Positions 190 to 40,529 of a stretch of DNA of 64,000 nucleotides are shown in pieces. Position 1 is the stretch's first letter, and the number at the start of each line of letters is the position of its first letter. The notes beneath the pieces were generated by a model, which worked only from the letters and a program-made list of their open reading frames with translations, ran no database searches and was not told the DNA's origin. The stretch covers positions 4,278,001 to 4,342,000 of the forward strand of contig NC_060026.1 in NCBI RefSeq assembly GCF_021134715.1. Reading direction: 5' to 3'. The position numbers were made by a program, and so were the translations under genes. Source of the DNA: Daphnia pulex (lineage: Eukaryota > Arthropoda > Branchiopoda > Diplostraca > Daphniidae).

Positions 190-3100
190 CCTAATTGGAC
201 GCAGTAATTACGGCAACTGCATTCGCAACGTTAGCAAATCACGTCTTTTTGTCCGGTCTTGTCGGTACCATGTACCTGAGGTTGTGCTGATGACACACCG
301 TGTTCATTTATCGGAATTCAAAATTCAAATTGAATTGCATTTGAAGTTGGACGGGACAGCCGTTCGAGGAGCTGAAAAAAAGTTTTAGTTTCTCCTCGGG
401 ACAGCGGTGAAAAGGGATAAGGGGAGCTCGTGAGTCGCGTCTAATTGAAAATTGCAAAACAAAATTTCAAAATTGAATTTCGGAATAATGGAAACAGAAG
501 GCATTGTGACTTAAAAAGCTTTAAATTTTTTCTTCCTTTTCAAACGTTTTCACTGGCGTTGCAAGACCGCTAAAATGCTGTAGGCGATATTGCGCTGGTT
601 TGCGGTATAGCATGAAATTATTGAAATTGAAATTGTCGATTGCGGGCTATTGAATCTTAACACGGGATTAAATGCAAATTTTTATTCGTGAACTTGTCAA
701 GTGTAGCCACAATCTTATGAGCCCCGTTGAATTTGTTCATTTTAACTGGTGAGAACAATTTATTTTATTCATCTGAATTATCTATATTAGTTCACTTGAT
801 TTATGAAGAATGATATCTAAATACCATGGAATTGTCTTTAATTTAATTCATTCCAAAATCCAAATGTGAATTCAGATCAAACTGTAAACTTAAGCAGAGT
901 CCCAAGACATCATTCTCTGTTGTAAAGGTTTTCAGCCTGTAATTCAGTTTATAAAGTAATCATCAAAATCAATCTGATTATTTAACCTTCGTTTTTCTTC
1001 TAATTGGATAGATGAATTTCAGTAACTGCACTCGCTACATTACTCGAACGCCTCTTTTTTTAAGTGTTGATTATCACATTCCTGATAGTTTCGCTGATCA
1101 CGAACCGTGTTCATATATTAGAATTCAAATGGAAGTTCATTTGAGGTATATTTTGAAGTCGTTTGGGGAATTTGAAGATCAGCGTTTTCTCCTTCGAACA
1201 GTCTTTCAAGATTAAAAGGGATGTGGGATGAGAAGAGATCGTATGTGACATTTACTAAACGATTGCTAAACAAAATTCGCTAAATTTGAAATAAGCATAC
1301 AGTCAAAAATGCTTTTGACTTGAAAACGTGTGCGATTTTTCTCACTGGCAATGAAAGTCGACTGGATTGCCGTCAGCAATTTTAATTTTGCTTACGGTGC
1401 AGCAGTATCCGATTAAATTACGCAATCGAAATCGTAATTTTTTGGGGATATTGAATCGTGACACACGACTGATTGTAATATTTTACTCGTGAACTTAAAA
1501 GTGCGGGTGATAGTTTTATGAGCTTCGTAAATGTTTTTAAGTTTTACTGATGAACTCAATCAAGTTGTTCGTCGGTATGATTGGCGTTGGTAAGCTTTTT
1601 TTCCTTTTTGGATGGTGTGTTAATAACCATACTGTTTTTATTTTAATTTACAAATGATTGCTGACGTGAACAAAGATTCTTTCCGCTATCCATTATTTCA
1701 CAATTTATTTCGAAATCATTGACTCCTTGCCTATAGGAAAATCAGACTCGGAATAGAATTGATCACAAGATTGCTATTCGAGTTTTGACACGAGATCACC
1801 TTTTTTAGTTTACAAAAGTAAGAAATAAGTTTAATTACTTAACCCACTCTTCCCGCCTAAATGGGTGCAGGAAATTCGGTGACTGCATTCGTTAGGTTAG
1901 CCAATCACTTCTTATTATCCGAATTTATCGTTATCATACACCTAAAGTTGCGCTGCTGACTAACCGTGTTCATTTATGGGAATTCAAATCGAATTGCAAT
2001 TAGAGGTTTGACGGGACAGCCGTTCGAGGAAGTGAAAGTAGTTTTGGTTTCTCCTCGGGGCAGCCGTGAAAAGGGACAAGGAGAGCTCGTGAGTGTGCCG
2101 CATTCACTTAACAGCTTCAAATCAAAATTTAAAAATTGAGTTTTGGAATAATAGAAACAGATTGGCCTCGTGACTTTAAAGAACTATTAATTTATTCTAC
2201 CTTTTAAAACGTTCTCATTGCTTCACTGGCGTTGCAAGACGATTAAATTGCCGTAGGCGATTTAGCGCTAATGTTGCGGCTACTCCATGAAATAACGCAA
2301 TTGAAATCGTCCTTTTCGGGCTACGGAATCATAACACTTGACTAATGGCAATTTAAATTAGTGAACTTGACACATACGACAACAGTTTTATTAGTTGAAT
2401 TAGTTTTCTGAAGTTTAATTGATCAGTTCACACGGCTTAGCTCCTCCTGTGTAATCGACATTTGCGAAATGTGTTACATGATGAACGGTGTATACAACAA
2501 ATAATTTTTCTGACATCGTGATTGATACAAACATCTGAACTACGTGTTGGGTTGACGATTAAACTTTTGGACCGTCTGGTATAGCTACGGTAATCACAGA
2601 AATTCCATCAAGCAATTGCATTTCCAATCCGTAGACATAGATGTTTGTATAGTGCATAAAATTACATAATAAATCGAAGTCTTATATTTCCATTTCCTTA
2701 CATAAATGGGCACCTGTATTGCAATATCTTTAATCGCAACGTTAGCTGTTACTTCTCAGTATCAAGTCATTCATTATTATATACCTGAATTGCCACCTTT
2801 TTCAGGAAGCGTGTTCATTAATCAGACTTGTAATAGGATCGTTATTGAAAGAACTTAATCGGGAAAAATTATATTTATTTGATCAAGGGCGGGGTTTTCA
2901 TCCAGGTAGTTTTTAAAATTGTTCTCTGCTTTCGTTTATCATTTCAACATTTCATTTCGCATTTGAAATTGGAAAAATCTCCGCATAATTCAAATTTTAA
3001 TTTTGAAATGGTGTTTACGGGTTTTTACGAACCTATGGGAATGGCAAATTGCTCGAGGCGAATTCTTCACTATTCCGTCGTTGGTTAATTAAATTCTGCC

Positions 3101-3660
3101 GACAAGTTGGAATTGTTGAACTATTCTGCACGGAAGCGGATGTTGAGTTAGGTTTTTGAATCGTGAACATAACTACTACCCACCAACATAACAACGCGTT
3201 ATAATTATAAATCCCCGCTATTATTCATACCAACATCCTACGCCAGCGATTCCAAATGCAAGATATTTACTAATCCAGTTTTGCTGAGGAAATGAGCTAA
3301 ATCTGACGGAATATTTCATTTTAAATTGTGATAGGTGTCAATGTAACTTGTTGATGTCAATCTCATCATCACCTTTTCCATACATTGCGCCCCAGTTGAT
3401 CGGTTCAAATCCACTGGACGGTAAGGAAGTGATTGATTAGTTACTCAGCAACACATTTGACTACTTAATGTAAAAACCTAAAATCAAGTAGGCCTATCTC
3501 GTAGTCTCGCATCCATCGCTGATAGACTTGTGAAATGCTGCAACTACCTAAGGCCCAAAAGGTCATACGTATTCATTTAGTTAACAACTCCCAACTTAAT
3601 TCTTGAGTTGTGTTTCTCGGACACAATGTTCGTAAATCAGAACTAAAAAATTACCATAAT
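190..3660. repeat. Diverged tandem repeat, unit about 0.81-0.86 kb, 4-5 copies
   Basis: The same ordered landmarks recur at regular spacing. A block like 'taattgga..gcag..actgcattcg' starts near 190, 1000, 1857 and 2701. A block like 'gtgttcatttatcggaattc' lies near 300, 1108, 1966 and 2811, with a weak fifth copy near 3627. A block like 'cactggcgttgcaagac' lies near 550, 1340 and 2225. Copies 1 and 3 are the most alike, sharing for example a stretch around 'acgggacagccgttcgagga' and a 'ctcctcgg' segment. Copies 4 and 5 are strongly decayed. No copy has a long open reading frame, so this looks like non-coding satellite-like DNA. It may sit in an upstream intron of the nAChR gene that ends at 6136. 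Confidence 0.75.
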
Positions 3661-5311
3661 AATTATCTTTAATTCTAACAAATTGCCTGTGCGAATTCAA
3701 ATTTGTGTCGATCAGCGCAAAATGTGCCTCGGGGCATTTTCGCTTGGGACGGATGAACTTTTATAATTTTTAGAACGGATGCCAACTTGAGATAATTTTG
3801 CCGTTGTAACGATAATTGGATGTCTTTTCAAATTAAATTGTTGAGTACATTTATCCATTCAAAACGTTATTTCCCTAGATTTTAACCCGTTTCAGTTAAG
3901 CGCAGCCAACAGGAATAGCATATTACTAATATGCTAATATGATATTAGTAAAGTAAAAAAAAAAAGAATTACTTAACTAACGCGTATTTATTTAAAAAAA
4001 AATTATAAACGCATTTTCTCTTGGCATTTAATTGGATGACGACAGACAACTGCAATTTGCCAAGAATTACTATACATTCTTTCTAACCCTAACTCGTCGT
4101 CGTCGTCTGTACCAGCTGCGTGACACAAATTTGAATAATTCAGATGTCGGAATTGCGACATATTGCGCCGAGTCGCATACGTCTCCTTCGCTAATTCTTG
4201 CGAATCTCTGACTATGGAGACAGAAGAAGGAAATTCCCTGATATTATACATGTCCATTCTTGGCTGATTGGACTTGCTGGGGCATTTTCTCTCTTGGATT
4301 AGTTAATGCGATTAAATGCGACAACCTGATTATGCAAATAGTCGAATCTAATTGGGCCGCATTTCGTTTTTTTGCCTCGACTAAACTGGATATTTAAATC
4401 TTAATTCATCTAACAGTCCGCCTCTGTCGTAGTTGTGTAATAATTTCTTAAAACATCATTTCAGTAAATCGAAATCATTTTTCTTTTCTCATAAATAAAA
4501 TCTCCTCTAATATTTATTGCGTTTCAATCGGGGCAAAAGCTAAAAGAAAATGGATAATGGATCTGTAACCCCCCTCCACCCGCAAATGGAAAGCGGAAGC
4601 GAAATTTATGTCCTCCTCGTCCCGGAATAGCCGGGGAAATGTTGAGGGCGAGTCCAGAGTAATATCGACGACCAATAGAGAGCCCCTCCCCTCCATCACT
4701 GCCCATTTGAAGTCGAGAGAGGATCCATCGATGTGTATACAGTTCGTTACGTCGTCTTGATGCTTTGATAATAGAGCGCACGAGGGGCTTTCGGGCCTGG
4801 CCGACCTGATTTACAACAAAGTAGATTGCCCTTCTGTCCTCTCGCCCATCCTATAGGCGACTTCTCCGCCATGGCCCACCAAGAACGCTATAGCTATAGG
4901 TTATTGACGATTCACGAGTTGTCATCGTTTGGGTGTAGTAGTAAATATATATGCCTCCTATAAGTGTACAGAAGGAAAAGCAGATGGAACCCTTTATACC
5001 AACAAACACGCCCTTATTTTTCTCTCTCCACTGTAGAGAGAGTGGCTATACCATTATTTATCTTTGGATGGCCACTTTTTTTTCCAAACTTCTTTTTTTC
5101 GTCTAGCAATTTTCCAAAACTCCCGGTCGATAAATCCTATTCAAAAGTGATGGCATTGACCGAAACTTTTATTTTTTTTCCAAGAAACTTTTGTCCTCCC
5201 GTCTGTCTGGGTAGAAATTGTCGAGTTAACCAGAATTTATACTTTTCGCGATTGATGTGGCGTGAAAAATGACCAAAGTTAAAACGGACGATTTGATTCG
5301 ACTCTCGGCAG
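3661..5311. other. Unassigned AT-rich stretch, probable intron or intergenic DNA
   Basis: No exon was recognised here on either strand. The short open frames have no family resemblance and lack convincing splice sites. If the nAChR subunit ending at 6136 has the usual architecture, its ligand-binding and M1-M3 exons must lie upstream. They are not visible here, so this stretch is probably part of a long intron. Homopolymer runs and pyrimidine-rich tracts are common near 5060-5180. Confidence 0.5.
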
Positions 5312-22674: not shown

Positions 22675-23717
22675 TAACTATGCGTTTCTTTGGTGAATGT
22701 TTCGATTCATTCAGAAAAGTTCATTATTTTGATGAACATTTCTCAAATTTTGAATTTTTTATTTTATTAATTTTTTTGTCCGTCCTTTCTGAGTTTATTT
22801 TTCCTCCAAAATATTTATTATGTAATTCGCGTAGATACTAGATAAGTACTGTTTTCCGCATGCCGTTCTCTGCTTCCTTTCAACGCTATTTACTTGTATT
22901 TGTTGCGATTGTATTTGTTCGAGACAAAGTTGCCTACCAGCAATGCTGCTTTATTCTTCTTCCAAACATTTTCGAGGAATCAATAAAGATCGCCAAAAAG
23001 TTTTATTTAAAAAGCTTTGCCAGTGAGAAGGAATTTTACTTTTACTAACTGTCTTATTCTCAGCTATATATGTTATTCACAGTCTCTACAAATAGGTTTT
23101 TGAAGGGTCGCGCCATAAAAAATGTTGGATGAGCTTGAAATGTTGGCCACCAGGTGGCTGGTTTTGTTTACTTGGTCCTGTCGTCTGTGTTCTTGCATGG
23201 TTTCTGTTTTTAAAATTTAAAAATTGTTTTTCTTATCTGTTTCTAGGAATATGGAAACAATTAGTAAGGGATTTGGAATGTGGTTGTGAATTTGAATAAA
23301 AGTGTTGGGATTGAAAAATAAGTGCTGAGGACCGCAAGGATAAACCGAGACTGCCAGATTTTGACTTGTTTGCAAACCAGGTTGGTTCAAAGTTTTCAGT
23401 TTCCCATGATACTAATTTGTAGTCTATACTGTTTACATGGTTTGGGCTTTACTTATTTGGGTGCAGTTCTAAAATAGGGCGTGATTCAATATCTTTCCTT
23501 GTTTACCAAAATTTAGCAGTTTTCCAGTGCACATTGACACCATCGAAAAGGTTATGCTTGTGAAATTCTGGCATTTAGAAAGAAACCGTGGTTAGTGATG
23601 ATTAGAGTATTCTTTATTTTAGGCCATTCCCATCAATCTTTGACGGTAAGAAAGATTTACAAGAATATTGAAATGAAAACAATGGTTGATTGGTAATCTT
23701 TTTCTATAGTAAATGGT
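22675..23717. other. Intergenic region; left end of the histone inverted repeat
   Basis: The first part is the copine 2 3' UTR. From about 23100 the sequence matches the reverse complement of DNA near 39235-38650: the segments around 'ccaccaggtggctggttttg' and 'caggttggttcaaa' recur inverted. This marks the outer end of the left arm of the histone palindrome. No gene was recognised. Confidence 0.65.
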
Positions 23718-23733
23718 GGCCCTGAAAAGGGCC
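23718..23733 (-). terminator. Histone 3' stem-loop of H3 (left)
   Basis: On the minus strand this reads GGCCCTTTTCAGGGCC followed by ACCA, the conserved 3' hairpin of replication-dependent histone mRNAs (six-base stem, TTTC loop). A purine-rich AGAAAAAGA downstream is the expected U7 snRNA pairing element. Confidence 0.95.
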
Positions 23734-23766
23734 GATTGATAAGTCAAAAGGGATTTTAAAAGTCGC

Positions 23767-24788
<1,022 letters not shown>

Positions 24789-24829
24789 ATCTGACTTTAG
24801 TAGTCAAACTCTGATCTTTCAATCCAATC

Positions 24830-24845
24830 GGCCCTTTTCAGGGCC
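24830..24845 (+). terminator. Histone 3' stem-loop of H4 (left)
   Basis: GGCCCTTTTCAGGGCC then ACCA, followed by a purine-rich AAAGAAAAAGA about 12 bases on. This is the standard signal for U7-dependent 3' end formation of histone mRNA. Confidence 0.95.
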
Positions 24846-25546
24846 ACCATTTACTTAAAGAAAAAGATTTCTCAACCACTTAAACCATATTCTTAAAGTC
24901 GACTTTCTATTAACATGAATAACAAAAACAATCCGATTTGATACAGGTCTTTGGAGCAATACGTACTAACTATTAAAGTATTAAGTAAGTGTTCGTGCAT
25001 CATAGAAAATATTTTTCTAGATATTAAAGCTGGTATGAAACGCATTTCACTGTTTTCAGCCGAATAACATGAATCGGAAAATATCCAGATGCTTCTCAGA
25101 TTTTACGGAGTATAATTTTTTGATCCATCCTACTTAAATTTTCGTCAATTTCTGAAGTTGTTCTTAGCTACTGCAAAATTATTTCGTCACTATCGGTCGA
25201 ACTTCATCTGAATCACCATTTGAATGAAATGAAAACGCTGTGGCATAGATCAAAACTGTTTTGATATGTTGATTTTTTAACGCTTTCTTTCAACTTCTAC
25301 TTTTAAATGAAAAAAAAACTGTGAATCCGAAATATTTGATAACTTTTCGTCGTATCTAACGATTTGCTTAATGTAAAAGTTACTCTATTGCTACGGAGAC
25401 GAATTTCGTGATCGATTTTTCTCTCTATTCAACGCATTGTTCCGAAATACCTTAGAAGAGCGTACTATGTCTAGATACAAAGCGTTAAGTTCCGTCATAA
25501 AAATTGGGTCGAGTTTTGGACTGGATTAGAAAAATGCCAAAAGCAG
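24846..25546. other. Spacer between H4 and H2B, left cluster
   Basis: A convergent spacer of about 0.7 kb between the ends of H4 and H2B. It is AT-rich and has no open frame of note. It corresponds to 36942-37477 in the right arm but is only partly alignable by eye. Confidence 0.6.
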
Positions 25547-25999
25547 TTAATTTGTTTTCATTTCTTGAATATTTTGGTGGCCCTGAAAAGGGCCGTTTGG
25601 TTTGTAGAGAGACCAAGAGGAACAATCTACTTGGTGCTGGTGTACTTTGGTGACTGCCTTGGTGCCTTCAGACACGGCGTGCTTGGCCAACTCACCGGGC
25701 AAGAGCAGACGGACGGCCGTCTGGATTTCCCGGCTGGTGATGGTCGAACGCTTGTTGTAGTGGGCAAGACGGGACGACTCTCCAGCGATGCGCTCGAAAA
25801 TGTCGTTGACGAAGCTGTTCATGATGGTCATGGCTTTGGAGGAGATGCCAGTGTCGGGGTGGACCTGCTTCAAGACTTTGTAGATGTAAATGGCGTAGCT
25901 CTCCTTCCTCTTGCGCTTCTTCTTCTTGTCGCCCTTGGCGATGTTCTTCTGGGCCTTGCCGGCCTTCTTCGCTGCTTTACCGCTAACCTTGGGGGGCAT
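25547..25999 (-). CDS. H2B: Histone H2B with C-terminal frameshift, left cluster
   Basis: A core histone gene, intronless, starting [20 protein letters not shown]. It matches the intact copy at 36522 through SEGTKAVTK. The coding strand then has one extra A (ACCAAAGTAC instead of ACCAAGTAC, near 25646-25650). The normal end YTSTK-stop is replaced by [11 protein letters not shown] and further residues. The frame passes the usual stop position (25627-25629), reads through the 3' stem-loop as NGPFQGHQ and stops only at 25547, giving 150 aa instead of 123. The histone fold itself is intact; the last residues of the alphaC end are changed. This is either a real damaged copy or a base-call error. 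It is divergent from H2A at 26417. Confidence 0.9.
25579..25594 (-). terminator. Histone 3' stem-loop of H2B (left), inside the shifted frame
   Basis: GGCCCTTTTCAGGGCC then ACCA on the minus strand. Because of the insertion in H2B, the open frame runs through this hairpin. Normal processing a few bases downstream would cut the mRNA before the new stop at 25547. Confidence 0.92.
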
Positions 26000-26416
26000 T
26001 CTGAGACTTGGAGTAAATCTGAGATTACTAGGCAAATACCAGTGACGGTTGTTAGTCTGGCGAGGGTATTTATTTCATATCTTGTTCACCCTCTTTACCT
26101 GACAGAAGCAAATTCTTCCGACCCGAGGACCAATAGGGTGGGACCCCAGCAGTGGGACCCAGCAGTGGGACAGATGTTCCGTGATCCAGCGCAGAAGGAG
26201 GAGGAGCTTCTGGTAGTTAACACAATCTTCCTTGTGTTACACGAAATAATGGCGGGAATATGTTTTACAGCTGCCCTTCCGATTGGTTTAAAATGGTCTC
26301 ACTGTGTTCACCATCAATCCGATCCTGGTGAGTATATAAGCCTCAACATCTTTTTCAAACTTTATCATTTCGTTCCTTGATTTTAGGAACCGCGTTCACT
26401 TACTCTACATCTCAAC
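26000..26416. promoter_or_regulatory. Bidirectional H2B-H2A promoter, left cluster
   Basis: A 417-base divergent spacer. The H2A side has TATATAAG at 26333-26340. The H2B side has only an AAATAAATACC-like element near 26066. A short direct repeat of the form CCCAGCAGTGGGAC lies at about 26145-26172. Unlike the H3-H4 spacer, this sequence does not match its counterpart in the right arm (36203-36521). Confidence 0.7.
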
Positions 26417-26797
26417 ATGTCTGGCCGTGGCAAAGGAGGCAAAGTCAAGGGAAAGTCAAAGACCCGTTCCAGCAGGGCCGGACTTCAATTCCCCGTCGGT
26501 CGTATCCACCGAATGCTCCGCAAAGGATCGTATGCTGAGCGCGTCGGTGCCGGTGCCCCCGTCTACTTGGCTGCCGTCATGGAGTACTTGGCCGCTGAGG
26601 TCCTCGAGTTAGCCGGTAACGCCGCCCGTGACAACAAGAAGACCCGCATCATCCCTCGTCACTTGCAATTGGCCATCCGCAACGACGAAGAGTTGAACAA
26701 ACTTCTCTCCGGTGTCACCATCGCTCAGGGTGGTGTCTTGCCCAACATCCAGGCCGTTCTCTTGCCCAAGAAGACCGACAAACCCGCCAAGGCTTAA
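26417..26797 (+). CDS. H2A: Histone H2A, left cluster
   Basis: A core histone of 126 aa, intronless. It begins [20 protein letters not shown], contains the acidic-patch region NDEELNKLL and ends KKTDKPAKA. It has no SQ(E/D) motif, so it is canonical H2A and not H2A.X. The stem-loop follows at 26821. The protein is identical to the H2A at 35822. Confidence 0.98.
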
Positions 26798-26820
26798 ACT
26801 TCTCCCGTCCTTAAATAAAC

Positions 26821-26836
26821 GGCCCTTTTCAGGGCC
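26821..26836 (+). terminator. Histone 3' stem-loop of H2A (left)
   Basis: GGCCCTTTTCAGGGCC then ACCA, with a purine-rich GAAAAAAGAA downstream for U7 pairing. The match with the right arm continues through about 26900. Confidence 0.95.
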
Positions 26837-26840
26837 ACCA

Positions 26841-27844
26841 ATTTATTTTGAAAAAAGAATTTGCTTAGTGCTACATTTCGTACATATCAATTAGGTTTTG
26901 GCAATGATTACTTGCGCAAATTTTCTGATTCATCGCAAGGTGGCACTCTTGAATTGTTTTGATTCAACCTAAATTGTCTGCTGGTATTTCGTTTGTCCAA
27001 CTGTGAGAGAAAAACATTTCTTATGATAGGCCTATTTCGATGAAATGGATGTATTTTACATGTTATTTTCGTATAAATTCATTTTTTTTCTTTTCTGTTC
27101 TTTTTAACTCTTCTCTTTTTTTCTGATCCACCTTGTTCAAATTCATGCAACCTTGCCCACTCCCCCTCAACTCCAGTCCAAAATATTCAAAATGGTCGCC
27201 GCCTGGATTGCTGGTGGAAGCGATTCTCATGATAATTCTTATCTCAGTGATTCGGTAATTGTTACATTTTTCGTGGATTGTTCTATGATAGCACTATTAG
27301 AGTATCTGTCTGTCTGGTATTTCATTTTTACCATAACACTTTGCGACCAACTTGAAAAAGAAATTGGATGGCTGTAAAGTGTAAAGAAGAGTTTACTTCA
27401 TATGAGATATTTTTGGTCTTTATTCTTAAAGTTGGGTTAGTTAAACTTTAAATTGTTTAATAGATGACACACTATTTAGATTCTCATTTCATTCTTGACC
27501 TAATATTTTCAGGTAATATCTTCAACTTAAGGTTTCGTGTGTCATGGGTGCTTGTGACAATAAAGATGAAATTGTCCAATTCAAGCTTGTGTCTTACAAA
27601 ACTAAGAAAATTCTATTTGCAAGGTAGTTGTTTTGGTTAACATTTATTTTTATTAGTGTGATATTTAAGATGGTAATGCATAATTAGGTAGAAAACCTTT
27701 CTGACAAAACATGGTTTTCCAGTTGTTGCTGAATGGATTGTTTTCGGGTTAGTTCCCATGTCTAAAGACAAATCCTAGCCCACAACTCACCAAGAGGATA
27801 CTTTCGACATATTTATGTCGATACTTTGTATGCAGAGGTACTGT
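26841..27844. other. Unmatched spacer inside the left arm
   Basis: After about 60 bases that still mirror the right arm, the sequence loses its inverted partner. The right arm is longer here (33171-35700). Short open frames are present but none has family resemblance. No gene called. Confidence 0.55.
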
Positions 27845-28257
27845 GCAATGTTTATTAATTATTTTTCAATTACCATTGTAGAGTTGAACCTACAGACGGG
27901 CCGGCCAGTTTGCATGTTCTTCACGCTTGAAGGGAACATATCGTGTAAAACTGTAAATGCGGTGTTGTAGAGGTTGGGTGAGAATGAAACGTGTTGCATC
28001 ATTATCAAGCAGGTATTCAATAGCCATTTGGTATTCATTTTGATATTGGTTTTTGTAGACCCATCCCCAGCAACGTCAACCTAAAGAAGGAAAGGCCAGT
28101 TTGCATTTCCTTCACGCTCGAAGGTCACGGAGATCTTAAAGTAAAACGTGTCATGCGACGGGGGAGAGGTTGGGTGAGGACGACACGTGTTGCATCATTA
28201 TCAAGCAGGTACAATAGCCGTAAGGCTTAAGAGAGGGGTCAGGGTGAGAAAAAGTCG

Positions 28258-28292
28258 TATAAAAGGAGAGAGAAAAGGCGTCGGAAATCAGT
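28258..28292 (+). promoter_or_regulatory. TATA box and initiator of small gene, left copy
   Basis: TATAAAAGG at 28258-28266 and the arthropod initiator TCAGT at 28288-28292 are spaced 30 bases start to start, the optimal distance for a pol II core promoter. A related pair, TTTAAAAGG at 28812 and TCAGT at 28842, has the same 30-base spacing. Confidence 0.8.
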
Positions 28293-28353
28293 CGAGTGAG
28301 CATCTCCGACACGGCAAGAACTGCTGTGCACTATTTGTCACTAAATCGCAATC

Positions 28354-28542
28354 ATGAGTAAATATTCTGTTACTTGTGTTTTTGTATTAATTTCTATTGT
28401 TTTTTGTCAGTTATTATTGCATATTAATGTTCAAATTATTTATTGTCTAGTCAATTATGGCGTTGTGCTGCTGTTTGTTGTTGTACACCACCACCAAGAC
28501 TACAATTTATGCTGCCCGAGCTGCATCACCAAAGAGCCCTAG
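28354..28542 (+). CDS. Small secreted-type protein or two-exon fragment, left copy
   Basis: An open frame of 62 codons starts 61 bases after the initiator TCAGT. It begins MSKYSVTCVFVLISIVFCQ, a hydrophobic start like a signal peptide, and ends CCPSCITKEP. An alternative reading is an intron from GTAAAT at 28358 to TCTAG near 28451. That would leave exon 1 as ATG plus A, then INYGVVLLFVVV and the same tail. The related unit at 28812-29585 has the same GTAAAT and TCTAG sites, which favours the spliced reading. The product is not recognised. An inverted copy with the same translation lies at 32471-32659. Confidence 0.5.
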   Translation: MSKYSVTCVFVLISIVFCQLLLHINVQIIYCLVNYGVVLLFVVVHHHQDYNLCCPSCITKEP

Positions 28543-28811
28543 TACTACATCGTGATTCCATTTTTTTAAAGCAAAATCCATTGGGTTTTAATTTTGATAT
28601 TGTTTTTTGCAGACCCATCCCCAGCAACGTCAACCTGCAGAAGGAAAGGCCAGTTTGTATGTCGTTCACTTTCAAAGGTCACGGAGATCATTACGTAAAA
28701 CTGTCAATGCGGTGGTGTAGAGGTTGGGTGAGAACGGGAAGCGTTTGCCTCATTTTCAAGCAGGTAAATAGCCGCAAGGCTTAAGAGAGGGGTCAGGGTG
28801 AGAAAAAGTAG

Positions 28812-28846
28812 TTTAAAAGGAGAGAGAAAAGGCCAAAAAAATCAGT
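28812..28846 (+). promoter_or_regulatory. TATA-like box and initiator before the YYTTKAAE unit
   Basis: TTTAAAAGG at 28812-28820 and TCAGT at 28842-28846. The flanks closely match the promoter at 28258, including the following 'gtgagcatctc' and 'gacacggcaa' segments, so the two arose by duplication. The T at the second TATA position may weaken it. Confidence 0.65.
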
Positions 28847-29049
28847 TGAGTGAGCATCTCTGACACGGCAACAACTGCTGTACACTATTTGTCACCAACT
28901 GCATTCTCGAACGTAATACCAGTTCGCAACCAAATGGTAAATTTTATTATGTTTTTACATAGTTTTGTATCATTTTTCACTTTATTATTTTTTCTCTTTG
29001 TTAATATGTCGGTTATTTTTGAAAATTAATGTTCAAATTATGTACCGTC

Positions 29050-29585
29050 TAGTTAACTATGGCGTCGTGCTGCTGTTGGTTGTTGTATCCTTGATGGTTG
29101 GGTCGACCACTGGTGTACCGATGTTTCGTGGGTATGGTTGATACCAAACCGCAACGCCGCCGTCTAACACAACAACAACGTGCGCAACAACCGCATACTT
29201 CACTACCAAGGCCGCTGAGTATTACACCACAACCTGTGATGTCCCGAACTACTTCACCGAAGCCTCAAAGTATAATTCTGCCTCGAGTTACACCACCAAG
29301 GCAGCGGAGTACTACACCACCAAGGCAGCGGAGTACTACACCACCAAGGCAGCGGAGTACTACACCACCAAGGCAGCGGAGTACTACACCACCAAGGCAG
29401 CGGAGTACTACACCACCAAGGCAGCGGAGTACTACACCACCAAGGCAGCGGAGTACTACACCACCAAGGCAGCGGAGTACTACACCACCAAGGCAGCGGA
29501 GTACTACACCACCAAGGCAGCGGAGTACTACACCACCAAGGCAGCGGAGACACCACAAACTACGATTCCGCAATTTTCTACATGA
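29050..29585 (+). pseudogene. YYTTKAAE-repeat secreted protein gene, broken by one TGA
   Basis: After a TCTAG acceptor-like site the frame reads VNYGVVLLLVVVSLMVG, a signal-peptide-like core, then STTGVPMFRGYG and a TGA at 29139-29141. Reading on in the same frame gives 147 further codons. They start YQTATPPSNTTTTCATTAYF, contain TTKAAEYYTTT and NYFTEASKYN, continue as YTTKAAE once plus YYTTKAAE ten times, and end with a stop at 29583. The start is also lost: the candidate exon 1 ends ATG|GTAAAT, which gives the wrong phase. Tyr/Thr-rich repeats of this kind are familiar to me from Daphnia secreted or cuticle-like proteins; this is recollection, not a search result. The longer open frame in another phase (RQRSTTPP repeats) is a by-product of the same 24-base repeat. 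Confidence 0.6.
29289..29549 (+). repeat. 24-base tandem repeat, one 21-base plus ten 24-base units
   Basis: The unit TACTACACCACCAAGGCAGC plus GGAG repeats with no mismatch that I can see. The first unit lacks one TAC. In the frame that continues the signal-peptide-like start it encodes YYTTKAAE. The perfect identity indicates very recent expansion or homogenisation. Confidence 0.95.
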
Positions 29586-30712
29586 AAATTTCTAAATACT
29601 CGAGCCGAAATTTCTGTCAGGTTATTTATATTTGTCGGTTATTTTATGATCATTGGTCACTGGAAATTAATTATTGATCTTAAAAGAGAAAATTAAAGTT
29701 TTAATACGGGTAATTCTTTTGTAATACTTTTGTTAGTAACTTCAAGTTTGTCAACTTTGCGTCAGTTGTCTATTGGTGTTGGATTTCTTCAAGACCGGTA
29801 TGCTGAATTGTGAATTGTTTATTTTATGGTTTAGAGGTGACTACTGCCTTATTCATATGGACATGTTCTTGTGGTTCGACGATGATATTTCAAGGATTAG
29901 TTACGAAAGACACTTGTAACTGTAGATTTTATCATCTTATAAGTAATGGGGAAGTGACTGACCTTTGTAAAAATGAAAGACTTTGAAATTGAGAGAAATA
30001 TATTGATACAATTCATAAACAAAACTTGGTATAAATTAGAAACAATGTACAAAAAACTTATAAAAAGAATTGTGTTATATTGTCCCACCTCCTCCCACAA
30101 TTCCTCCACAATTTATAGTCAGATACATACATACACATATACACGATACACATATACATACACTTAAGTTAACCCATTAACTGCCACGCCATACAACCCG
30201 TAAGTTACTCTCTACTAATCTACGCGCCACGTCTGAAGGATCCATGACCAAGTGGGACTTTCCATTGCTGACAAGTCCGTGCTGAAAAGGGGGAACTATG
30301 GTGAATTGCCTAAAACAGGCGCCTTGCGGCAAATTTTGGGCTTGGCGACTCTCCGACCCCGCGGCTTGTAAACCACGAGACCAAACAGCGTGGCCCGTGC
30401 TAAGGAACTAGGGGAAAACAAAGGCGTGGCAGACAACGGGTTAACTAACACTAACACAAACATATTACCAACAACAAATGATGATCCACGCTGACATTTT
30501 GGAGATACCAGCGACGTTTTAGTGTCCATCTTCTCGACGTTTCCTCTCATTACCTGAATAGAATAAAGAGAAAACAATTCTTATTAAGTGACATGCCAAT
30601 TAAAGTAACATAATAGTCACATAATACATATAGGCTCATTGTTCTGGTTTTTTTGCTCGAAACTTTAAAGGCGCGCTTTAAATTGCTTAAAATCTACCTA
30701 ACAATATTGAGA
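29586..30712. other. Spacer of the histone palindrome, left part
   Basis: AT-rich DNA between the arms. It includes a short TACACATA-type simple repeat near 30121-30162. No gene was recognised; the short open frames lack family resemblance. Confidence 0.5.
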
Positions 30713-31115
30713 ACTGTTCACAGAACAAAGCTCACATGCTAGTCTTCAAAAAAAATTCCGAGAGTAGACCGGAAGTAACCACAGCGCCTCAACCATTGAG
30801 CTGTCGTCAAATTAAACCACATATTCGTGATCTCCATGAAATTTGGGGTCGATTAGATGTGATTTAAACGAAATCCAAAATTTGGCCAAAATCGAGAATT
30901 TTCCTGAACTATAGTTCAGGAAAATTTTCGAAACCGGAAGTACGCGTACGTAAAAAAGATAACATGAACTTTACCACAAATTTGACGAGGATTACGAATA
31001 TGTGGTTCTTTTGCTCCTCGAATGAATATTTACTGAACTACTGACTGAAATGAGCAAACCGGAAGTAGAAAAAAAAGAGCAATTATCGAAAATTTTACAA
31101 GTGAGCTTTGTTTCA
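30713..31115. mobile_element. Foldback (MITE-like) element with perfect 30-bp palindromic core
   Basis: Nested inverted segments share one centre near 30911. ACAAAGCTCAC (30725) pairs with GTGAGCTTTGT (31101). GTCGTCAAATT (about 30803) pairs with AATTTGACGAGG (about 30979). AACCACATATTCGT (30815-30828) pairs exactly with ACGAATATGTGGTT (30994-31007). The core 30897-30926 is a perfect 30-base palindrome. The right half carries two CCGGAAGT motifs and the left half one, all in the same orientation. There is no open frame, so this would be a non-autonomous foldback element. I saw no clear target-site duplication. Confidence 0.6.
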
Positions 31116-32274
31116 GGAATAGTAATCGTCAGTTATTACTAAATATTTCAACAAAATAACTGCCAATAAATGTTTAAATAGACGTGCAAAGTAACTGAAA
31201 ATGACTGTTATGACAGCTGCAAATTATCAAAAAGCCATCTAGCGTTAGAAAAAAGAAACGTCCAAGTAAAACTTCGTTGGCGCGTAAGAAGGGTCTGATT
31301 TTGAAAACTATTACACAGACAGAGTCTAACGCAACTAGACTATTAGTAGATAACCTACGAAAATAAGTCAATTGTTGGGTACCTGGGCCTAATCCCTTGG
31401 TGAGTGACTGCAGGTGCGTAACAGCGGACGGAAGCGATCACTGAAGTGGTCCAGAAACTCGCCAGTGAAGTAAAACAAATTGTGTTTAGAAGCAGTAAAG
31501 TTAGATGAGCGTGCGTCGCGAAGATAACGATGGACGTTGACGTGGAAGTCCCTCTTCCGTCATGGACAAAGGTCAGCATTGGCACAAGAATCTCCGGGCC
31601 AGGACCACACGATTCCATAAAGAAACTGTGTGCTCTGTAAAATAAAATGTTTTACATTAATAAAAATACAACAAAGAATAAAGCATATCAATCTTTACCT
31701 TTTCTAAGAAGCACACTTCAATTATCATGATGAAAAAACCGTAAAAATGGAAATAACAGGAACAAACAGTCTTACTCCTCATGTATAGATAAATTTCCTG
31801 ATGCTAAAGAAAGTGTCATAATGTATTACAGTAGCATGGTGATAGGTGTTTCACTTCACACTCTTCATGTCACTGAAACTCTAAGTGGAAATGGGACAAG
31901 GAAATTCTCTACGTTATTTTCAAATTTACACAAATTTACCTGTGACAAATAAAACTTTACCTATCTCTTAGCTGGGTTGCCTTCTAAACACAAATAAAAA
32001 CAGCCATAACAACAAACATGCTATTGCAGGGTACTCCATAAAAATTCCGAGATTCAGAAAAGATCCTATGGTTCAATAATACCTATGTTACATGAAAATC
32101 TGAATTGTAATGGACTGATAGTAGTAATGGGAAAATACCTTAACTCGGCAAATTTGTATTCCACTATATGTGAGCTTGAAACATGAGTTTTAGGTTTTGA
32201 CACCATTATGGGTCTATTGGATGGAAATTGACTGAGCGCTAAGTCAACTTGTTGGAATGACTGACAGTACGCTT
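31116..32274. other. Spacer of the histone palindrome, right part
   Basis: AT-rich DNA with no recognisable gene. An open frame of 87 codons at 31355-31618 on the minus strand has no family resemblance. The right arm of the inverted repeat begins near 32275. Confidence 0.5.
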
Positions 32275-35821: not shown

Positions 35822-36202
35822 TTAAGCCTTGGCGGGTTTGTCGGTCTTCTTGGGCAAGAGAACAGCCTGGATGTTGGGCAAAACACCACCCTGAGCGATG
35901 GTGACACCGGAGAGAAGTTTGTTCAACTCTTCGTCGTTGCGGATGGCCAATTGCAAGTGACGAGGGATGATGCGGGTCTTCTTGTTGTCACGGGCGGCGT
36001 TACCGGCCAACTCGAGGACCTCAGCGGCCAAGTACTCCATGACGGCAGCCAAGTAGACGGGGGCACCGGCACCGACGCGCTCAGCGTACGATCCCTTGCG
36101 GAGCATTCGGTGGATACGACCGACGGGGAATTGAAGTCCGGCCCTGCTGGAACGGGTCTTTGACTTTCCCTTGACTTTGCCTCCTTTGCCACGACCAGAC
36201 AT
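35822..36202 (-). CDS. H2A: Histone H2A, right cluster
   Basis: A 126-aa canonical H2A with the same protein sequence as the left copy at 26417; the nucleotide sequence differs at a few positions. TATATAAA lies at 36285-36278 on the minus strand. It is divergent from H2B at 36522 and is followed by a histone stem-loop. Confidence 0.98.
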
Positions 36203-36521: not shown

Positions 36522-36893
36522 ATGCCTCCCAAAGTTAGCGGAAAAGCAGCGAAGAAGGCCGGCAAGGCCCAGAAGAACATCGCCAAGGGCGACAAGAAGA
36601 AGAAGCGCAAGAGGAAGGAGAGCTACGCCATTTACATCTACAAAGTCTTGAAGCAGGTCCATCCCGACACTGGCATCTCCTCCAAAGCCATGACCATCAT
36701 GAACAGCTTCGTCAACGACATTTTCGAGCGCATCGCTGGAGAGTCGTCCCGTCTTGCCCACTACAACAAGCGTTCGACCATCACTAGCCGGGAAATCCAG
36801 ACGGCCGTCCGTCTGCTCTTGCCCGGTGAGTTGGCCAAGCACGCCGTGTCTGAAGGCACCAAGGCAGTGACCAAGTACACCAGCACCAAGTAG
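36522..36893 (+). CDS. H2B: Histone H2B, right cluster (intact)
   Basis: A 123-aa H2B starting [20 protein letters not shown] and ending with the normal [10 protein letters not shown]. This is the intact reference for the frameshifted left copy. The stem-loop follows 33 bases after the stop. Its upstream TATAAA is better than anything seen before the left copy. Confidence 0.98.
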
Positions 36894-36925
36894 AGTGTTC
36901 CTCTTGTTCTCTCTACAAACCAAAC

Positions 36926-36941
36926 GGCCCTTTTCAGGGCC
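36926..36941 (+). terminator. Histone 3' stem-loop of H2B (right)
   Basis: GGCCCTTTTCAGGGCC then ACCA, followed by CAAGAAAGCAAAAA as a probable U7 pairing element. Confidence 0.95.
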
Positions 36942-37477
36942 ACCAAATTTTCAAGAAAGCAAAAACATCTAACTACTTTTGACATATATTGTCTAATCGA
37001 GTTCTAAACTCAACCCATTTTGTTGATTAGTGCGACGGAACGTTATGAAGTACTGTGATCAAGAGCGTTTCTCTATCTTTCTGCTGAATTTTAAGTTTGG
37101 CAGATCCGGTTCAATGCGTTTATATCTACATATTCATTTGTTTCAGAAAATCTCCGTTAGTAACTTCTTTTACATACTAAGGAACTCTAACCATAAAACA
37201 TTTTTGTTAAATATGAGAAATTAAAATACTGTGTAAAATCTGAGAAAACAACCTAACAGCGTCTGGATATTTGAGTTATTTTTAACACAGTTTCAGTTCA
37301 CAAGACCTTTTAGGACGCATTGCTCCAACACCTGCTATGTCAAATCTTTCAAAGATGAAATAAAAGAATGATGCTAATCAATTCAAATTCAAGGATTTTG
37401 TTCTTGTAGCTAGCATAAAGTCGACAAGAATATGGTTTAAAAAGTGGTTAAGAAATCTTTTTCTTTAAGTAAATGGT
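36942..37477. other. Spacer between H2B and H4, right cluster
   Basis: A convergent spacer of about 0.5 kb with no gene. It is the counterpart of 24846-25546, with partial inverted similarity at both ends and divergence in the middle. Confidence 0.6.
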
Positions 37478-37493
37478 GGCCCTGAAAAGGGCC
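37478..37493 (-). terminator. Histone 3' stem-loop of H4 (right)
   Basis: GGCCCTTTTCAGGGCC then ACCA on the minus strand, with the same AAAGAAAAAGA downstream element as the left H4. Confidence 0.95.
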
Positions 37494-37536
37494 GATTGGA
37501 TTGAGTCGGAGTTTAAATAATAAATCAGAATCAAAT

Positions 37537-38558
<1,022 letters not shown>

Positions 38559-38587
38559 GCGACCTAATACTCCTTGATTTACCAATC

Positions 38588-38603
38588 GGCCCTTTTCAGG
38601 GCC
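38588..38603 (+). terminator. Histone 3' stem-loop of H3 (right)
   Basis: GGCCCTTTTCAGGGCC then ACCA, followed by AAAGCAAAGA as the purine-rich element. Confidence 0.95.
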
Positions 38604-40529
38604 ACCATTTACTAAAGCAAAGATTATCAACCACCCATGTTTTTCATTTCAATACTATTGTAAATCTTTCTTGCCGTCACAGATTGTTGTAAAGGCAATG
38701 GCCTTTACAATAAAGAATAGCAAATAGCCTACTCTTACTTATCACTAACTACTGGTTCCTTCTGAATGTCTTTCCTTATCGATGATTTCAATGTGCCAAT
38801 GAAAACTGCTACAATTTTTTGCTAAACAAGAACAAACATTGAATCATTATGCACTATTTTTGAACCAAATAAATAGACCGCAAACCATTTAAACAGTGGG
38901 AATCTGAAAATTTTTGAACCAACCTGGTTTGTGGTTTGCAAACAAGATCTGGCTGTCGGTTTATTCACGTGATCTTGTGATCTTCGCCACTCATTCTTTC
39001 GATCCAAACACTTTATTTAAATTCACAACCACATTTCAAACTCCTAATTATTTGTTTCAATATTATTCCCAGATACAAATAAGAATACGGTAGCATTTTT
39101 TAAAACAAGAACACAGACGACAATCAAAATCTACAGTCTACACAATACAAGGCGAAGTAAACAAAACAAGCCACCTGGTGGCCAATATTTAGAGCTCATT
39201 CAACATTTTTGACGGCGCGACCTCTCAAAAAGACAAAAACCGATTTGCACAAAAACGAATTGCTCTCTCGTTTCCGCTTTTACGAAGAGAAGCGAAAAGA
39301 AATAAGAGAGATTCGAGGGATTCAGAGACTTATACTTTACAACGAATTTGTACATTCGATAACTGATCTCAGAGTCCTTGATTCAGTTCTGATTTCTTTG
39401 ATTTTCTTTTCCTTTGGCTTTCAAATTTCTGGTGGCGAAAAAAGTGACAGGGTCACCCTTCTTTTTTGTCCAACTCATGTGTCTATGCTGAATATCTCTA
39501 GTCCGTTCTTGTAGGAGTTTCGTAGTCTAAACACCGTTATCGGTTTAACGGACACGCTAGTGTATAATGCACGACGACGACAACATGCATAACCTTCGAT
39601 AACTTTGATTTAATGAGTTTAATGAGCCATCTTTTTGTGGCAAATGCGCTTAGTCTGAATTATTATTAATTTCTGCATTGAAACCTGGTAAAAATAACAA
39701 TTTTAATTCTGCTTTAATGCAGCGTTTTTAGTGTCATAATAAATTTAAATATTAGAATTCGTTTGCAATGTGGGCATTACTGATTGCGTTACTATTATCT
39801 TTACATTTTCTGTGAAATGGGGCTCGAACGGCTTGCCCCAACGACGAGGGAGGCATTCACTATGCAGTATACACTATTCATTAATTAAAAAATGGATATG
39901 AAAATTTAAAATTTCAATCCGGTTTTTGCACGAATGAAATCTCATTCAAAGGTCTTGCGTGGTCCTTACAAAGCATTTATATTCCATATGAGCCATGACC
40001 CTTGATTGCGATTTTTCCTTCACGAGAACAAGCTTTTGAATCCAGACAATTATGTCCCATGGCAACTGGACTTGAATTAGTCGACTAGAATTTTGCAAAG
40101 CTGTTACTACTAAATCGTTCAGGTACTATACTCTTACAATGTCTCAGGTATCACGATTTTCCAGATTTCTTTGTTCTTAATTTTTTTTTTAAGTGATGGA
40201 ACCCTGGCGAGTGGAGAAGTCACAAGATTTGAATTGATTTTGTAACAATTAGATGAAACGTTGCCTATTCCCTTAAGCCAAAATAACTAAAATGAGTCAC
40301 CATTATAACAGGCAGGAATCAAATATGTAGTTATAAGTTACGTTAACTACCAATTAAAAGACAACAATTACAGTTAACAACTCGAAATTTCCGAGTTGAT
40401 GCTTCTTTAGACTACCCATGAAGATTTACACATCGGCACGAGAAAAGAATGAGAGAGAAAGATAGTATACAAGATCTAGGAAATTTTTGATGTTGGTCTT
40501 GTCTCACTGGTGTGTCGAACTTAGTCCAA
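38604..40529. other. Right flank of histone palindrome and PDH E1 beta 3' side
   Basis: Up to about 39235 this mirrors the left outer flank. An inverted pair GTAAAGGCAATG / GGCCTTTACAAT lies near 38690-38712. Beyond 39235 there is no recognised gene. The final part should hold the 3' UTR of PDH E1 beta. Confidence 0.55.

Follow-up and report, generated by a model that had tools for sequence, protein, structure and literature searches.

A probable one-base lesion in an H2B gene copy of the dispersed histone family of Daphnia pulex that carries the reading frame past the mRNA 3' stem-loop

Results

The frameshifted H2B copy

The window analysed in this work is the whole stretch of 64,000 nucleotides from Daphnia pulex (NC_060026.1, positions 4,278,001 to 4,342,000 of the forward strand), and all positions given without a contig refer to it. 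The window carries an inverted pair of core histone gene arms. The H2B copy of the left arm (L016) is located at 25547-25999 on the minus strand. Its frame encodes 150 residues, where residues 1-118 are those of intact H2B and the last five residues of the intact protein (YTSTK) are swapped for 32 others. The PF00125 match to this copy in the profile search (85.2 bits, C10:4303706-4303984) indicates that the coding sequence of the H2B histone fold is present. The lysine that we take to be the equivalent of the ubiquitinated K120 of human H2B is also retained.

Direct comparison with the intact H2B copy of the right arm (36522-36893, plus strand, 123 residues, stem-loop at 36921-36965) identified one extra A in the left copy. 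The minus strand at 25651-25642 reads ACCAAAGTAC where the intact copy reads ACCAAGTAC, and the AA run has become AAA at 25648-25646. The former TAG stop (25627-25629, minus strand) is out of frame, and the shifted frame continues through the stem-loop to a TAA stop (25547-25549, minus strand). The extra A, the loss of the normal stop, and the passage of the frame through the stem-loop had all been described in an earlier reading made from the letters alone (the sequence-only reading), and they are borne out. The stop codon that usually lies shortly upstream of the stem-loop in replication-dependent H2B genes is absent from L016, and the next in-frame stop lies beyond the stem-loop. Judged against its intact paralogues as a pseudogene would be, L016 has acquired a disabling change (+1, compared with the 25 of the 28 copies that keep the full frame).

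The stem-loop of L016, GGCCCTTTTCAGGGCC (25579-25594, minus strand), is 16 nt in length and falls within an Rfam RF00032 match at 25599-25555 (41.1 bits, gathering score 34). The predicted fold contains this stem-loop, and the shifted frame reads it in phase 0 as GGC CCT TTT CAG GGC. Histone mRNAs are cleaved about 4-5 nt past the stem. With the cut placed from this general knowledge, cleavage is predicted directly after the ACCA that lies 3' of the stem (25575-25578, minus strand), and the mRNA would end at 25575, in the middle of a codon and 425 nt from the A of the ATG. No in-frame stop occurs within the 425 nt up to this predicted point, and the TAA lies 26-28 nt past it. The non-stop mRNA proposed in the sequence-only reading stands as a prediction from sequence logic (lost stop, stem-loop, and predicted cut).

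Distribution of the extra base among H2B genes

The whole genome (133,188,837 bases in 13 contigs) was searched with the PF00125 profile. The search returned 95 rows from which H2B genes were picked by score, and the counts given here are lower bounds. At least 28 H2B copies were found, where 26 are located at C10:1.77-4.32 Mb, one is an orphon at C10:7.65 Mb, and one is on C8. All 28 matches were fetched with their flanks and their H2B identity was confirmed by blastn. Alignment of their 3' parts shows that only two of the 28 copies carry the extra A, which are L016 and L015 (C10:3956371, plus strand). The remaining 26 lack it; one of these, L022, carries a deletion there and is disrupted early on. 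Exact patterns were also searched throughout the genome. The 25-base pattern that includes the extra A was found at two places and the 24-base pattern that lacks it at 25 places, and neither pattern has a match when written backward as a control.

As a control for the frame, the H3, H4, H2A, and H2B genes were re-read in the 28 fetched loci, with fetched ranges that do not hold all four genes at each locus. The full frame is kept by all 24 H3 matches, 25 of the 26 H4 matches, 25 of the 26 H2A matches, and 25 of the 28 H2B matches. The failures belong to L022 (H4, H2A, and H2B) and to L015 and L016 (H2B).

Three units of the survey differ in other ways. In the orphon histone unit L022 (C10:7644437-7650721), H2B and H2A are broken and H4 is partial, but stem-loops are retained nearby. 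The H2B on C8 (L036, C8:1785380-1791658) acquired the protein changes A9T, K15Q, K25E, and Y40F. The H2B of L011 (C10:1813578-1819853) acquired A21T and K30R.

The related inverted pair

The second extra A lies in the right arm of a related inverted pair at C10:3.94-3.96 Mb, about 347 kb from the window. This pair forms a palindrome that spans about 16 kb, with arms of about 8 kb that are 98.5% alike. Its left arm (L014) has the same H2B coding sequence without the extra A, and the three closest H2B copies (window left arm and both 3.94 Mb arms) are identical in coding sequence apart from this base. The coding sequence of L016 differs from that of L014 by the extra A alone, and the lesion is too recent for further decay under relaxed constraint to be judged.

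The likeness extends well beyond the H2B gene. Window positions 24438-32269 are 98.9% alike to the left half of the 3.940-3.959 Mb pair, and the outer stretches 22886-24190 and 37426-39262 are 98.0% and 97.8% alike to its left and right outer stretches, respectively. In the three-way alignment, the window arm agrees with the 3.94 Mb left arm at 22886-23765 and 25125-25265, and with the right arm at 24151-24473. Such mosaic agreement is what would be expected from exchange between units. Positions 25266-32269 provide 6,907 gap-free columns, where the two 3.94 Mb arms differ from each other by three substitutions and the window differs from them by 11 and 12. These last counts suggest that the copying was recent. 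Four isolated single-base indels were identified among the three related copies at 24474-32269. Three of them are in longer homopolymer runs and the one in H2B is not.

Late frameshifts in other H2B copies

The intact copy has only 32 nt between its stop and its stem-loop, so late frameshifts in these genes usually yield non-stop messages. Frameshifts were simulated in 26 of the 28 H2B copies, where the two left out are L022 (orphon pseudogene) and L019 (no stem-loop in the stretch scanned). With a +1 shift introduced after codon 117, 19 of the 26 copies reach the cleavage point without a stop, and with a -1 shift near the end all 26 do. When the two frameshifted copies are also set aside, this holds for 17 of 24 and 24 of 24, respectively. 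A special design that avoids stops before cleavage was considered and is rejected, since the simulated late frameshifts mostly lack stops too. The structural point of the sequence-only reading is right, and the compactness of the 3' ends of these genes accounts for it.

A full-frame H2B with a distant stem-loop was also observed. At L049 406-3360 (C10:3004305-3007259; also L019), 2,955 bases of foreign DNA lie between the stop and the stem-loop, which survives about 3 kb downstream. This is a natural case of a distant stop codon. The insert is flanked by a repeated CTAC, and its start (TGTAATGA) and end (TCATCACA) match each other imperfectly over a short inverted stretch. A blastn comparison of the strand with itself revealed no long inverted terminal repeat in the insert (direct repeats were not searched).

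Histone gene arrangement in the window and the genome

The other core histone genes of the window are intact. The left arm has H3 (23767-24177, minus strand, stem-loop at 23738-23694), H4 (24477-24788, plus strand, stem-loop at 24825-24870), and H2A (26417-26797, plus strand, stem-loop at 26816-26861). The right arm has H2A (35822-36202, minus strand, stem-loop at 35802-35758), H4 (37537-37848, minus strand, stem-loop at 37498-37453), and H3 (38148-38558, plus strand, stem-loop at 38583-38627). Rfam identifies a histone stem-loop for every core histone gene of both arms, eight in total, and that of L016 lies inside its extended frame.

Core histone genes (L009-L021 and L023-L035) lie mostly in inverted pairs at C10:1.77-4.32 Mb, over about 2.5 Mb, and the spacing from H2B to H2B within the pairs is about 11-27 kb. 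The arrangement is one of dispersed palindromes and not of one tandem array. The arms are at least 99.0% alike in nine of the 11 inverted pairs compared (2,163 to 5,300 of 5,300 bases aligned), and the exceptions are the two frameshift-bearing pairs with 95.0% and 90.6%. The high likeness of the arms suggests that they overwrite each other. The lesion may persist where exchange from arm to arm is impaired, but both exceptional pairs share one history and so amount to a single observation rather than a test.

Two repeats of the window were also noted. An inverted repeat of 906 bases (27840-28744 and 33174-32269, 99.8% alike) lies in the spacer of the pair and has a related open frame of about 110 codons in each copy. 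A tandem repeat at 29289-29549 proceeds in 24-base steps (TTPPRQRS repeats in one frame), and its length varies among the three related units. Apart from the histone genes, a GH7 cellulase exon agrees with PDB 4xnn, a Daphnia pulex protein, at 94 of 101 residues. This near match falls short of identity and is mild evidence against the species or the gene being exactly the same, and a further GH7 stretch has only loose similarity to 4xnn.

Discussion

Origin and spread of the lesion

The findings in this work make it likely that the extra A is a real and recent +1 lesion in a dispersed histone family, mostly of inverted pairs, and that segmental duplication or ectopic gene conversion copied it together with its unit. 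L016 looks like a real gene copy that is broken and inherited, and not like a slip of the sequencing. One base inserted in one unit of the family would have disabled its H2B gene, and the lesion would then have been copied with the unit, which would place it in the left arm of the window pair and in the right arm of the 3.94 Mb pair. The lesion is ordinary, recent gene damage in a high-copy family. Both frameshifted copies would be effectively null among the 28 H2B copies found, and they would be tolerated thanks to the 25 full-frame copies.

Three points weigh against this reading. The 3.94 Mb arms group together in their flanks though only one of them carries the insertion, and either a reversal or a short conversion tract or heterozygosity has to be assumed. 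Assembly confusion among such similar copies could formally have given a shared consensus artefact. The transcription, cleavage, and decay of the frameshifted copies are only what we infer from the DNA.

It is possible, though somewhat doubtful, that the insertion predates the split of the two units and that the 3.94 Mb left arm was restored to the intact state by a short gene conversion, which is compatible with a real copied lesion. In the flanks the window arm falls outside both 3.94 Mb arms, and an insertion already present in the common ancestor of all three would be the simplest account of its sharing. L033, the closest intact copy from outside this group, matches over 87 nt on the upstream side of the site and over 28 nt on the downstream side, and a conversion tract of up to about 115 nt would therefore leave no other trace. 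However, a reversal of the single base or a transfer of the lesion between units fits equally with the data that favour an ancestral insertion.

Heterozygosity for the insertion at one or more arms, where the assembly displays one haplotype of each, is rather unlikely and would be a finer version of the same history. It would account for the difference at this one base between arms that are nearly identical elsewhere, but the lesion would still be real.

An error of assembly or base calling, which the sequence-only reading had taken as the simplest alternative, is now disfavoured. The histone units are near-identical repeats that may be polished ambiguously, and the mate arm in the 3.94 Mb pair lacks the extra base. 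However, the same extra A is present in a second copy about 347 kb away, which makes a base error very unlikely. The change is from AA to AAA and not within a long homopolymer, the other re-read histone genes exhibit no frame breaks outside one orphon unit, and an assembly polished towards the majority would be expected to show the unshifted version, which is present 25 times.

A functional polyadenylated H2B variant with a C-terminus altered over 32 residues, also raised in the sequence-only reading, is highly improbable: the frame is open down to 25547 and some H2B genes give polyadenylated mRNAs in cells of other animals according to PMC3661734, but the stem-loop is intact, the novel tail is former 3' UTR and stem-loop sequence, and the ATTAAA of the sister arms is absent. 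Such transcripts would be an escape route for a gene like L016; the difference is that L016 has no canonical poly(A) signal nearby. Neither AATAAA nor ATTAAA, the two hexamers scored, occurs in sense from 25547 to 23618, which is 1,929 nt past the shifted stop, and this lack of a signal within 1.9 kb downstream argues against the variant. In L014 and L015 the ATTAAA follows the normal coding length by 286-287 nt, but such hexamers often occur by chance and no argument is based on it.

Predicted fate of the mRNA

L016 differs from its intact sister L014 by one base in the 300 upstream, and both share an identical stem-loop followed by an identical purine-rich stretch, so transcription and cleavage after the stem-loop should persist. 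The search for U7 snRNA (RF00066) gave no matches in the genome and none in the controls either, and so speaks neither for nor against 3' processing. If L016 is still transcribed and cut after the stem-loop, the mature mRNA would possess neither a stop codon nor a poly(A) tail. Ribosomes would traverse the stem-loop, strip off the protein bound to it, and stall where the mRNA ends, and the known pathways predict rescue by Pelota/Hbs1 and decay by the exosome. Both frameshifted copies would give such tail-less non-stop mRNAs if they are transcribed and processed normally. Nothing in so short an AAA run points to compensation by ribosomal or transcriptional slippage.

The full proposal is on balance doubtful. 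The two copies would be transcribed in S phase as a natural tail-less non-stop mRNA alongside the 25 full-frame H2B genes, decay would move from the termination-linked SLBP/UPF1 route to ribosome rescue, and exchange among the inverted units would both spread and repair the lesion. No-go decay has been linked to the clearance of normal histone mRNAs (PMC6180196).

Comparison with known systems

Histone multigene families evolve by birth and death and contain pseudogene copies. L016 is similar to the frameshifted pseudogenes of such families, where one indel disables an otherwise intact high-copy gene and the family continues on the other copies. It differs from them as the lesion lies near the 3' end, leaves 118 of the 123 residues and the stem-loop unchanged, and is present in two units. 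L016 also resembles the genes of replication-dependent histone mRNAs in its stem-loop above the Rfam gathering score, its intronless frame, and its clustered core histone neighbours, but termination is missing. The predicted mRNA is comparable to the substrates of non-stop decay as it has no in-frame stop before its 3' end. However, the non-stop substrates described in PMC10548175 are read into a poly(A) tail, whereas the L016 mRNA is predicted to end without a tail just past the stem-loop. No description of such a frameshifted histone gene was found in titles and the beginnings of abstracts on Daphnia histone genes, non-stop histone mRNA, histone mRNA decay, histone gene conversion, and translation through the stem-loop, with subscription journals mostly outside this literature.

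Conclusions

The lesion would serve as a traceable marker of copying and repair between dispersed inverted histone units. If it is confirmed, the handling of a histone message that lacks a usable stop could be tested endogenously and on a near-isogenic background, since only one base separates the coding sequence of L014 from that of the frameshifted copy. It is ordinary gene damage, yet it is useful as a natural reporter.
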